Positions 13,357 through 50,111 of a stretch of 64,000 nucleotides of DNA are shown here, piece by piece. The stretch lies in the NCBI GenBank assembly GCA_026168605.1, contig JAPFDX010000034.1:138887-202886 (forward strand), in the 5' to 3' direction. A program made the translations under genes and the position numbers. The notes below the pieces were generated by a model that was not told the origin of the DNA, made no database searches, and was given only the letters and a program-made list of their open reading frames with translations. The stretch comes from Roseburia sp. (GTDB lineage Bacteria > Bacillota > Clostridia > Lachnospirales > Lachnospiraceae). How positions within the stretch are numbered: the stretch's first letter is position 1; every line of letters starts with the position of its first letter.

Positions 13357-13362
13357 TATACT
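13357..13362 (+). promoter_or_regulatory. Possible -10 hexamer (TATACT) immediately upstream of repeat element copy A
   Basis: TATACT 12 bp before the element's left end; no good -35. Confidence 0.3.
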
Positions 13363-13374
13363 AAAGTAGAGGTA

Positions 13375-13684
13375 GGATGCCGGGGGCAGAAAGGGCTTTT
13401 CAAAAATGGAGTTGGCGAGTGGCATAAATGGTATTCTGATTTGTGAATGTGGAGAAGCTTAGAGCTTCTTAATGTTCTGTCAGTTTCCAGCAATTCGACG
13501 GCAGGGATGCTGGCGAAAGTCCGAACTGCGCCACGGATGGCGCATAGAGGACGGTTGCGTCCGTAAACAATACCGCTGCCAGAACATTTTAGAAGCTCTT
13601 AGATTCGGAACCTGAACAAAAAGAATACCATTTATGCCACTTGCCAGACGCAATCCGTAAAAGCCCCTTTTACCGTCGGCATCC
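13375..13684 (+). repeat. Palindromic non-coding element copy A (about 310 bp) with ANGGAT-hexaloop hairpins
   Basis: Ends GGATGCCG...CGGCATCC; internal inverted arms tggcgagtggcataaatggtattct / agaataccatttatgccacttgcca (1 mismatch in 25); hairpins CGGC-AGGGAT-GCTG (13499-13512) and TGCGCC-ACGGAT-GGCGCA (13527-13544). Confidence 0.85.
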
Positions 13685-13726: not shown

Positions 13727-14578
13727 ATGCCGGAATACAAAAAAGTCGGTTATCTGACCAGCAGTTTTAAGATGTTTCATTTAAAGGACACGGAGCACAG
13801 GGAGTTCAGCTACCACTATCACGATTTTCACAAGATCCTGATCCTGTTAAGCGGCGACGTGACGTACACGATCGAGGGTCATGCCTATGATCTGCGCCCG
13901 GACGACATCGTACTCATCAGCGCCGGGGAGGTTCACAAACCCGTCATCCACTCCGACGCGCCCTACGAGCGCATCATTATCTATATTTCCCCTGATTATC
14001 TGAACGAATACCGGGAAAAGGAAAATGATCTCACACTCTGTCTGCACCGGGCGCGCAGCGAGCAGGCGCACGTTCTCCGGCTACAGTCCTCCCGAAACGG
14101 CAGGCTCGGCACAGTCATCCGGGAGCTTGACCGCTCTCTGTACGATGAGGACTACGCAAACGCGCTCCACCACCGTGTTCTCTTTCTGGAATTTATGATC
14201 CAGCTCAACCGTGCGGCGCTGCACAACCACATTCTTTTTATCGAGGACACGACCTCCAACGAAAAAATCCTCTCTGTGCTCTCCTATTTACACAAGCACC
14301 TGACCGAGGATATCAGCATCGAGGAGCTTGCCGCGAGCGTCTTTTTAAGCCGCTCCTATCTCATGCATATGTTTAAGGAGCAGACCGGATACACCCTCGG
14401 AAGCTATATTTCCACCAAGCGCCTCTTCCTTGCAAGAGAGCTGATCGGAGACGGTATGCCTGTCACGGAAGCCTGCTATGCCTGCGGTTTCCGCAATTAC
14501 TCGACCTTCCTGCGGGCATATAAAAAGAGCTTCGGCGAATCCCCGAGGGATCAGCGCCCAAGCTCTCTCAACCCTTAA
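13727..14578 (+). CDS. AraC-family transcriptional regulator (cupin + HTH)
   Basis: YHYHDFHKILILLSGDVTYTIEG cupin; C-terminal double HTH LAASVFLSRSYLMHMFKEQTGYTLGSYISTKR. Confidence 0.9.
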   Translation: MPEYKKVGYLTSSFKMFHLKDTEHREFSYHYHDFHKILILLSGDVTYTIEGHAYDLRPDDIVLISAGEVHKPVIHSDAPYERIIIYISPDYLNEYREKENDLTLCLHRARSEQAHVLRLQSSRNGRLGTVIRELDRSLYDEDYANALHHRVLFLEFMIQLNRAALHNHILFIEDTTSNEKILSVLSYLHKHLTEDISIEELAASVFLSRSYLMHMFKEQTGYTLGSYISTKRLFLARELIGDGMPVTEACYACGFRNYSTFLRAYKKSFGESPRDQRPSSLNP

Positions 14579-25138: not shown

Positions 25139-25167
25139 TTGCCATTTTGCACTTTTTCTTCTATAAT
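25139..25167 (+). promoter_or_regulatory. Sigma-A-type promoter reading into element copy C and the AraC gene
   Basis: TTGCCA-17 nt-TATAAT. Confidence 0.6.
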
Positions 25168-25170
25168 AAT

Positions 25171-25293
25171 TTGAGTGACAAAAGGGAATTTTTAAATTTA
25201 GAAGTTCTTGGTTTCGGAATCCTGAACAAAAAGAATATCATTTGTGCATTTTCCCAATCACAATCTGAAAAACCCCTTTTGACACCCGAATCC
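25171..25293 (+). repeat. Palindromic element copy C, internally deleted (about 123 bp)
   Basis: Left end gtgacaaaaggga fused to right-arm sequence ttagaagttcttggtttcggaatcctgaacaaaaagaatatcatttgtgca...aaaaaccccttttgacaccc shared with A and B; core hairpins missing. Confidence 0.8.
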
Positions 25294-25329
25294 TATTATT
25301 ATAGTAATTCACGGTATAAAGGAGTTCCT

Positions 25330-26154
25330 ATGAGCAATCGAAAATTCAACTTAGAAAACACGGTGCTTCCACAGATTTCGTTCCGGCTTCTGTCCATCTC
25401 CGCTTCCAAATATGAGAATGACTGGGAGAGCTTTCCGCACAGCCACTACTTCACGGAAATCTTTTTCGTCAAAAGCGGCACCGGACATATGCAGATTGAG
25501 AACGAGTCCATCCCGCTTGAGGCAAATAACCTTGTCCTGATCGGCGCGCAGGTGCTCCACACCGAATTTTCCAATCCATCCGACCCGCTCGACTACTATG
25601 TCCTCGGCGTGGAGGGATTAAAGATCAACACCGACCGTCCGGTTGAGTACAGTGTCGTCGACGCCTCCTCCAGCTTTCCCGAAGTGCGCCAGTGTTTCGA
25701 GAGCATTTTGTGGGAAATGCATAACCGCTCGGACGGCTACGCAGAGGTCTGCCAGCACTATCTGGCGATCCTCGTTCTGCTGATCTGCCGCAAGGATCAC
25801 GTTTCTTATGAGCTGGTGGACACCCAGAACAGCAGCCGCGAGTGCCACAAGGTCAAGCGCTATATTGAGACAAACTATCACGACAAGATCACGCTCGATT
25901 CCCTCGCAGAGAACTGTAACCTCACAAAATATTATCTGAGTCACAAGTTTACGGAACTCTACCGCAAATCTCCGATCGCTTATCTGACAGAGATCCGCAT
26001 TGCCGCGGCAAAAGACCTTCTGAAAACGACCAGTTACAGCATTGAAGAGATTGCAAGCGCCACGGGTTTTTCCTCTAGCAGCTATTTTTCGCAGACCTTC
26101 CAGAAGTTCTGCCGGATGTCGCCACAGCAGTACCGGAAGTCACATACCGCGTGA
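25330..26154 (+). CDS. AraC-family transcriptional regulator (cupin + HTH)
   Basis: ORF 25051-26154 trimmed to RBS-preceded ATG (aaaggagttcctATG); HTH LAENCNLTKYYLSHKFTELYRKSPIAYLTEIR. Confidence 0.9.
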   Translation: MSNRKFNLENTVLPQISFRLLSISASKYENDWESFPHSHYFTEIFFVKSGTGHMQIENESIPLEANNLVLIGAQVLHTEFSNPSDPLDYYVLGVEGLKINTDRPVEYSVVDASSSFPEVRQCFESILWEMHNRSDGYAEVCQHYLAILVLLICRKDHVSYELVDTQNSSRECHKVKRYIETNYHDKITLDSLAENCNLTKYYLSHKFTELYRKSPIAYLTEIRIAAAKDLLKTTSYSIEEIASATGFSSSSYFSQTFQKFCRMSPQQYRKSHTA

Positions 26155-45814: not shown

Positions 45815-45861
45815 AACCCCACATCCTCTTTTTCAATTATGCCGTTTTATATGCTTTATTA

Positions 45862-46170
45862 GATCAGGGTGTCAAAAGGGAGTTTTCAAAAATGGGATTG
45901 GCAAAATGTACAAATGGTATTCTGATTTGTGCATATGGAGAAACTTAGAAATTCTTAATGTTCTGCCAATTTCCAGCAATTCGACGGCAGGGATGCCGAC
46001 GAAAGCCCGAATTGCGCCACGGATGGCGCATCGAGGGCGGTTGTGTTCCTGCACATGAACAATACCCAGAGCATTTTAGAAATTCTTAGTTTCGGAATCC
46101 TGAACAAAAGGAATATCATTTGTGCAGTTCGCCAGTTGCAATTTATAAAACCCTTTTTGACACCTTGATC
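45862..46170 (+). repeat. Palindromic non-coding element copy B (about 309 bp) with ANGGAT-hexaloop hairpins
   Basis: Ends gatcagggtgtcaaaa...ttttgacaccttgatc; hairpins CGGC-AGGGAT-GCCG (45985-45998) and TGCGCC-ACGGAT-GGCGCA (46013-46030); flanked by direct TTTATTA (45855-45861, 46171-46177). Confidence 0.88.
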
Positions 46171-46210
46171 TTTATTATAAAAAAAGCTGTGGGGAAATGC
46201 AATGGCAGGA

Positions 46211-49178: not shown

Positions 49179-50111
49179 TTAATGCCATTCAGACGTACCG
49201 CCTAAATCCGTGCCATCATCTGAGCCAGTGCCCGGCTGTGGTACAAAATCCTCAACGTCGTCAAACTCCGGAGACTCCCACCAGTTATCAGACGGCGCGC
49301 CACTGTTACCAGATGTATCACCACCAGCATTTCCTGCATCTGTACCGCCTGCATTGCCGGTATTTCCGCCATTGCCTGCGTCTCCTGCGTTACCGCCCTG
49401 ATCTGTGCCGCCTGCATTGCCGGTATTTCCGCTGTTATCTGTATTTCCGGTTCCTCCGACATTTCCTGCGCCGCCGTTACTGCCTGCATTCCCAGTGCTG
49501 CCATTATCAGGAGCTGCGGTGCTTCCGGTGTTACCGCTGTTACCCGCACTGTTTGTATTTCCTACATTATTTACATTTTCTACATTTCCAGTATTGCCCG
49601 CAGCCCCTGTATTTCCAGCATTTCCTCCATTATTTCCACTGACCGCACTACCGTTACTTCCTGCTCCCTTTGTCGGAGTACTTACTTTCTGATCGGACAG
49701 ATACTTGTCACTGACATATCCTTCCTCACCGTTATAATTGATCCGGTACCAGCCCGTATCCGCCTGACCGGTCACGGTTACTTTCTGTCCTGCCGTTAAA
49801 CTGCCGAGTTTTTCATGATCGGAGCCAGGACCCTTTCTGACATTTACGGTCTGCGTGGCATACTTTGTAGCAGACAGTTCTGTGACGGCAAATGCCGGAG
49901 TTTCCGTTTCTTCCGGAATCTCTGTTTCTGTCGTCTCTGTTTCCTCTGTTTCTTCCGCGATCTCTGTGACTTCCTCTGTCTCTGTCACTGCAATAACTTC
50001 CGTTCCTACGACATCCTCGGTCTTATTGCTGCCGCATCCGGTCACTGCTCCTGCAAGCACGCTCACGCTTAATCCCATGATTCCCAAAAATTTCAGTGTG
50101 TTCTTTTTCAT
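49179..50111 (-). CDS. SH3b-domain lipoprotein with long Gly-Asn-rich repeat tail
   Basis: MKKNTLKFLGIMGLSVSVLAGAVTGCGSN lipobox; QTVNVRKGPGSDHEKLGSLTAGQKVTVTG SH3b; GNTGNAGGTDQGGNAGDAGNGGNTGNAGGTDAGNAGG. Confidence 0.85.
   Translation of the reverse strand: MKKNTLKFLGIMGLSVSVLAGAVTGCGSNKTEDVVGTEVIAVTETEEVTEIAEETEETETTETEIPEETETPAFAVTELSATKYATQTVNVRKGPGSDHEKLGSLTAGQKVTVTGQADTGWYRINYNGEEGYVSDKYLSDQKVSTPTKGAGSNGSAVSGNNGGNAGNTGAAGNTGNVENVNNVGNTNSAGNSGNTGSTAAPDNGSTGNAGSNGGAGNVGGTGNTDNSGNTGNAGGTDQGGNAGDAGNGGNTGNAGGTDAGNAGGDTSGNSGAPSDNWWESPEFDDVEDFVPQPGTGSDDGTDLGGTSEWH

Follow-up and report, generated by a model that had tools for sequence, protein, structure and literature searches.

A transposable palindromic element with a TwoAYGGAY RNA core, a candidate carrier of CsrA-responsive leaders and decoys in Roseburia sp.

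Introduction

The window analysed here is the whole 64,000-nucleotide stretch taken from one contig of a Roseburia sp. genome. Directly in front of a gene for an AraC-family regulator, it contains a palindromic element whose core displays two hairpin loops resembling CsrA recognition sites. An initial annotation made from the letters had read this element as a structured RNA that titrates CsrA or acts as a CsrA-responsive leader. Is the element kept as an RNA, as a DNA, or partly as each, how did it come to stand before the araC gene, and is CsrA its likely partner? TwoAYGGAY was described as a candidate RNA of the human gut, gammaproteobacteria and Clostridiales (PMC2864571). In 2014 it was predicted to be a CsrA-binding sRNA (PMC4333381). 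Both the RNA family and the CsrA hypothesis are already known from these papers.

Results

Layout of the element and its RNA core

The features are listed in Table 1. The inverted-repeat search found the long inverted arms around a small core that the initial annotation had described. The outer arms are 63 nt each and 76% complementary, and the best end match of this copy begins at 13377 (ATGCCGG). The + strand folds at -151.9 kcal/mol (z = -12.9 vs shuffles). The - strand also folds well (z = -12.0), which follows from the outer arms being palindromic DNA. The two loops lie exactly where they had been placed. Their stems had been given as 5 and 6 bp; hairpin 2 does have 6 bp on top of a lower stem, but hairpin 1 is built otherwise, with 4 bp (one of them G-U), an A-G mismatch and then 3 bp. 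No credible ORF was found across the element, as had been claimed; an 86-aa TTG ORF on the - strand overlaps it and is a mechanical call that is not credible. An intrinsic terminator was rejected, for a U-run is absent 3' of the element and the sole terminator-like match (13452-13470) lies within an inner arm. The sequence scan gave no clear promoter inside the element.

Table 1. Coordinates of the element, its parts and neighbouring features in the window
Feature	Position	Strand	Evidence
Full element, subfamily A copy	13375..13684	+	inverted arms, genome-wide copies, empty site in relatives
Left outer arm (inverted end)	13375..13437	.	inverted-repeat search
Right outer arm (inverted end)	13622..13684	.	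inverted-repeat search
TwoAYGGAY RNA core (RF01731)	13447..13613	+	cmscan 110.7 bits, model 1-168; covariation
Hairpin 1, loop AGGGAT 13503-13508	13495..13516	+	helix 4, 91.8% cells paired
Hairpin 2, loop ACGGAT 13533-13538	13519..13552	+	helix 5, 79.7% cells paired
Probable -10 box (TATACT) of araC gene	13357..13362	+	just upstream of element
AraC-family regulator gene, element in its leader	13727..14578	+	HTH_18, HTH_AraC, AraC_binding
Core-deleted derivative	25178..25294, limits approximate	+	repeat family D2, sequence
Second full element (subfamily B, L025)	45863..46169	+	cmscan 107.5 bits, core 45934-46100

The TwoAYGGAY motif, named as a possibility in the initial annotation, proved to be the right family: cmscan matched RF01731 over the full model, with a score of 110.7 bits and a gathering cut-off of 43. 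In an alignment of 43 cores, most of them from different genera, 79.8% of the cells were paired in the Rfam structure, compared with 38-42% when the pairing was slid by 1-3 columns; the rows are related, the structure was taken from Rfam, and the values for slid or shuffled pairings are not probabilities, with a large effect in all main helices. Changes on both sides were found in 47 of the 54 pairs. These compensatory changes across genera support both predicted hairpins.

The GGA was intact in 78/78 host loops (39 copies, both loops), and the adjacent bases vary. Within the core, the bases of the paired hexaloops vary least; some TwoAYGGAY loops in other genera have no GGA. The first loop, AGGGAT, is strictly ANGGAY rather than AYGGAY. 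The distance from GGA to GGA is 30 nt. The SELEX consensus for CsrA is RUACARGGAUGU with loops of mostly six bases, and a single CsrA dimer is able to span two sites that are 10-63 nt apart (PMC7652899). Judged by sequence, the hexaloop motif and the 30-nt spacing fit this consensus and bridging range and would suit one CsrA dimer. The CsrA-type character of both loops, claimed at the outset, is borne out by the invariant GGA of the host copies. We predict with considerable confidence that CsrA is the ligand of the element RNA.

Core and outer arms appear to be maintained differently

Among the well-supported core pairs of 30 host copies, the ratio of G-U to A-C was 39:3. The corresponding ratio was 101:104 in the host outer arms and 150:211 in those of three relatives. 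The contrast between core and arms had a Fisher p of 3e-8, in a test that treats cells as independent though the copies share ancestry. The core tolerates G-U and not A-C and therefore appears to be kept as RNA; the outer arms have no such bias and therefore appear to be kept as DNA. Across genera, the core ratio was only 33:27, a weak excess behind which alignment error perhaps lies. Arm complementarity was higher within copies than across copies in both host subfamilies (A, 0.735 vs 0.627; B, 0.728 vs 0.682) and in three relatives (0.767 vs 0.360). By the G-U:A-C ratios, maintenance seems to act on a + strand RNA in the core and on a double-stranded palindrome in the outer arms. The initial reading of a structured RNA holds for the core; it seems not to extend to the outer arms, which lack the G-U/A-C asymmetry.

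Copies, subfamilies and transposition

The element is dispersed, as had been proposed, with two full copies in the window and 39 RF01731 matches in the host genome (about 40 by DNA); no copies were found in 14 control genomes. A typical element is about 307 bp long with inverted ends. The motif GA[AG]TGTG[AG]AGAA separates the host copies by sequence into subfamily A with 12 members and subfamily B with 27; the copy L069 was reassigned to B once its ends and its perfect duplication had been seen, so this step was not blind. The ends of subfamily B are ATTCGGGTGTCAAAAGG. Its 9-bp direct repeats had an identity of 62% vs 40% for cross-pairs, with a peak at k = 9 only, and 0/20,000 permutations were as high; this test was run on those 20 B copies whose ends are clear, with L069 still counted under A. 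The element ends were fixed from the inverted repeat alone, as joint optimisation of ends and duplication can invent duplications. Perfect duplications flank L069 (CCTATCAAG) and L072 (CCGGATAGG). The second full copy in the window lies between the 9-bp repeats CTTTATTAG (45854-45862) and CTTTATTAT (46170-46178), which are 8/9 identical. Copies in G053 have, by eye, the same ends and duplications.

The 13375 copy has no recognisable 9-bp duplication (2/9). In subfamily A as a whole, clear duplications are lacking and the arms have diverged further, traits that would fit older insertions. Mobility had no place in the initial annotation; by its inverted ends, 9-bp target duplications and empty sites, the element is transposable. 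No autonomous parent with the same ends (up to 2 mismatches) was found in G000 or G053, and we therefore call the element MITE-like and assign it to no class. Phage cargo was considered and set aside: a 35-base core pattern had no exact match in viral contigs, which is a narrow test.

Several further structures were observed. The core-deleted derivative retains the ends and the right arm only; a TATAAT-like box near 25160 precedes it, and a second AraC-type gene (25330-26154, Pfam) follows it. In G053, the TwoAYGGAY copies L152, L153, L156 and L157 form divergent pairs that belong to a larger repeated unit. Judged by how end matches are spaced, there are also palindromes of about 30-40 bp composed of only the two element ends (G053:C1:2832961-2833001 and 3685266-3685306; G000:C36:277823-277854). 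Imperfect 63-nt direct repeats at 49338-49631 (family D3) are perhaps a repetitive coding region.

Empty sites and leader positions

Among named organisms, the araC gene has its closest relatives mostly in Roseburia. By cmscan, the element was present at 0/19 araC loci of relatives and at 0/20 named loci, two sets that may overlap in species. An ancestral, conserved cis-leader of araC was rejected because the element is absent from all of these loci. The AT-rich region upstream of araC is common to many relatives without the element; the TATACT box in it was not listed by the consensus promoter scan. For the greA, pcrA, dinB, DUF5721 and ABC ATPase (L072) loci, the relatives likewise had the element in 0/19. 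The promoter region is kept in element-free relatives at araC, greA, pcrA and dinB, and the greA promoter TTGACG-17-TATAAT is retained in several of them; at the DUF5721 locus, the empty site is less clear at the promoter level. Because relatives share the promoter region without the element, the element came in behind a promoter that was already there and ahead of the start codon.

With gene directions taken from a simple ORF caller, the next gene was co-directional for 12/12 subfamily A copies vs 13/27 subfamily B copies (p 0.003). Promoter-like matches just upstream of the element averaged 8.83 of 12 in subfamily A vs 6.68 after shuffling, and 6.04 vs 6.07 in subfamily B. Subfamily A copies are therefore predicted to be mostly 5' leaders of the next gene. 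These genes encode an AraC regulator, a DNA polymerase IV type protein, DUF3783, a short-chain dehydrogenase, a UvrD-type helicase, GreA, a PurL-type protein, DUF5050, RsmF, DUF5721, SecA and one product without a Pfam match. At secA, the L003 gene and purL, an additional promoter-like sequence was seen by eye between element and gene. Most copies in G016, G053 and G055 are not leaders, so leader use is not general.

Other effects on neighbouring genes were tried and rejected. Classical occlusion of the Shine-Dalgarno sequence by CsrA is unlikely, as the sites lie about 175-210 nt 5' of it. Hybrid promoters from the outward -35 (TTGACA) in the B ends had no suitably spaced -10 (one copy, by eye). 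In subfamily B, 18/27 copies are in sense with the upstream gene, a bias that was not repeated in G053 and G055.

Distribution of csrA and of the RNA

The host has five CsrA-family genes, in agreement with the expectation of a csrA in its genome: a FliW-like/CsrA gene pair (named by eye) and four paralogs. The paralogs L032, L033, L034 and L035 (about 79-100 aa) each lie, by eye, beside a flagellin-like and/or a tyrosine-recombinase-like gene, and two of them are close to contig ends. They look like cassettes for flagellin variation.

csrA was found in 44/45 RNA-carrying genomes of the family vs 111/254 others (p 2e-13), and in 32/37 RNA-carrying genomes of the class vs 95/357 others (p 9e-13). 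The family set comprised 299 genomes, almost all one per genus, and the class set 394, with a few genomes common to both; the cross-tables were compiled by hand from lists and the genomes are not independent. Most of the 6 RNA-carrying genomes without a csrA match are incomplete or fragmented. Within the genus, csrA was found in 57/61 genomes and the RNA in 24/61. In these genomes, csrA is nearly necessary for the presence of the RNA and not sufficient. Flagellar genes and csrA travel together. The association of the RNA with csrA may be indirect, as csrA co-occurs with flagella and phylogeny.

Discussion

We consider it somewhat probable that this is a MITE-like element carrying a CsrA-docking RNA, with leaders bound by CsrA and CsrA titrated by the roughly 40 copies. 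Structure, loop conservation, mobility, empty sites, leader position and the association with csrA together give this explanation comparative support. A non-autonomous palindromic element would haul the TwoAYGGAY core as cargo. A transcribed copy would form a long stem with a junction holding two hairpins, each displaying an ANGGAN hexaloop. The 13375 copy would have inserted between the pre-existing promoter region and the araC start codon, and the araC mRNA, if transcribed from the araC promoter, would now start with the RNA module. CsrA may dock on such leaders and on other element transcripts; docked CsrA may alter mRNA stability in cis, and the copies summed may titrate CsrA in trans. The wider idea that a transposable element disseminates leaders and decoys responsive to CsrA among Clostridia genomes, its transposition building and rewiring a post-transcriptional regulon that in turn loads the CsrA pool, is plausible at somewhat below even chances. 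The combination of cis and trans effects of the element RNAs is suggested tentatively.

Each of the two effects could act by itself. Every transcribed copy might be a CsrA-responsive leader or 3' UTR module with negligible titration, and the constant sense placement of subfamily A, the promoter-like match at the element start and the insertion behind a conserved promoter region agree with this. We consider it unlikely, as the target genes are unrelated (polymerase, helicase, GreA, SecA, PurL-type and others), the sites are distant from the Shine-Dalgarno sequence, and subfamily B and most copies of three relatives are not leaders. The random orientation of subfamily B would suit element RNAs that act jointly as a sponge like CsrB/RsmZ, with gene proximity being incidental; about 40 copies with two sites each and every GGA intact, and the prediction of a CsrA-sequestering sRNA (PMC4333381), point the same way. 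The strict sense placement of subfamily A argues against a pure sponge, and no promoter or terminator of its own was recognised within the element, which makes this reading quite improbable.

A different possibility is that the element is purely selfish DNA and CsrA is irrelevant, the core hairpins being folded single-stranded DNA for transposition as in IS200/IS605 or attC. Mobility is clear, with palindromic ends and duplications, and covariation by itself cannot separate single-stranded DNA from RNA. Against this reading, the G-U:A-C ratio is 39:3 in the core vs 101:104 in the arms, the GGA loops are invariant, and the RNA is associated with csrA. The 9-bp length of the duplication is a sign of a DDE-type transposase acting on double-stranded ends and not of single-stranded DNA transposition. 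We regard purely selfish DNA as very improbable. The least probable reading is that another RNA-binding protein or the ribosome binds the core, the likeness to CsrA sites and the association with csrA coming from a flagellated lifestyle and common descent. That flagellar genes and csrA travel together favours this reading, but paired ANGGAN hexaloops are the exact CsrA signature and hold the most constant bases of the core. We prefer the MITE-like carrier of a CsrA-docking RNA.

For the sites of DNA-binding transcription factors, it is well known that transposition enlarges regulons. To our knowledge, such growth is hardly documented for a bacterial RNA-binding protein. We found no mobile CsrA-binding repeats in the open-licence literature searched, and, with respect to that literature, the mobile carrier, the split RNA/DNA maintenance, the co-occurrence with csrA and the leader insertions appear to be new. 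A moving element may rewire or soak up the global regulator CsrA. If CsrA binds the copies, Clostridia have their own system of CsrA decoys and targets outside Gammaproteobacteria; we found no test of the 2014 prediction of such decoys in the open-licence literature. Under the same condition, nature provides a comparison with and without the element wherever a copy has inserted behind a conserved promoter. An orphan Rfam family gains a mode of spread and a candidate ligand. The comparison of G-U with A-C in core and arms is a simple means to separate RNA-level from DNA-level maintenance in a palindrome.

REP/BIME, Correia and BOX repeats are, like this element, short, dispersed, palindromic and intergenic, and sometimes affect adjacent genes. 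We know of no covarying CsrA-type RNA core in them. Within TwoAYGGAY (RF01731, clan CL00106), the element core is a full-length member with both AYGGAY-type hairpins; no description of a mobile carrier, target duplications or empty sites was found in PMC2864571 or PMC4333381. CsrB/CsrC and RsmX/Y/Z resemble the element in having several GGA hexaloop hairpins per RNA, proposed to hold CsrA dimers. They are single-locus sRNAs of Gammaproteobacteria with their own promoters (PMC4333381, PMC7652899), whereas the element is scattered in about 40 copies, each with two sites, and some of these copies stand in mRNA leaders. The bcr1-bcr3 repeats of the Bacillus cereus group are likewise MITE-like and intergenic, with tens of copies that are often transcribed in UTRs (PMC3446304, PMC6542083). 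They differ in sequence and have TTTAT repeats instead of 9-bp duplications, and PMC3446304 and PMC6542083 report no CsrA-type hairpin pair in them. By analogy, the bcr repeats are the nearest counterpart of the element in lifestyle.
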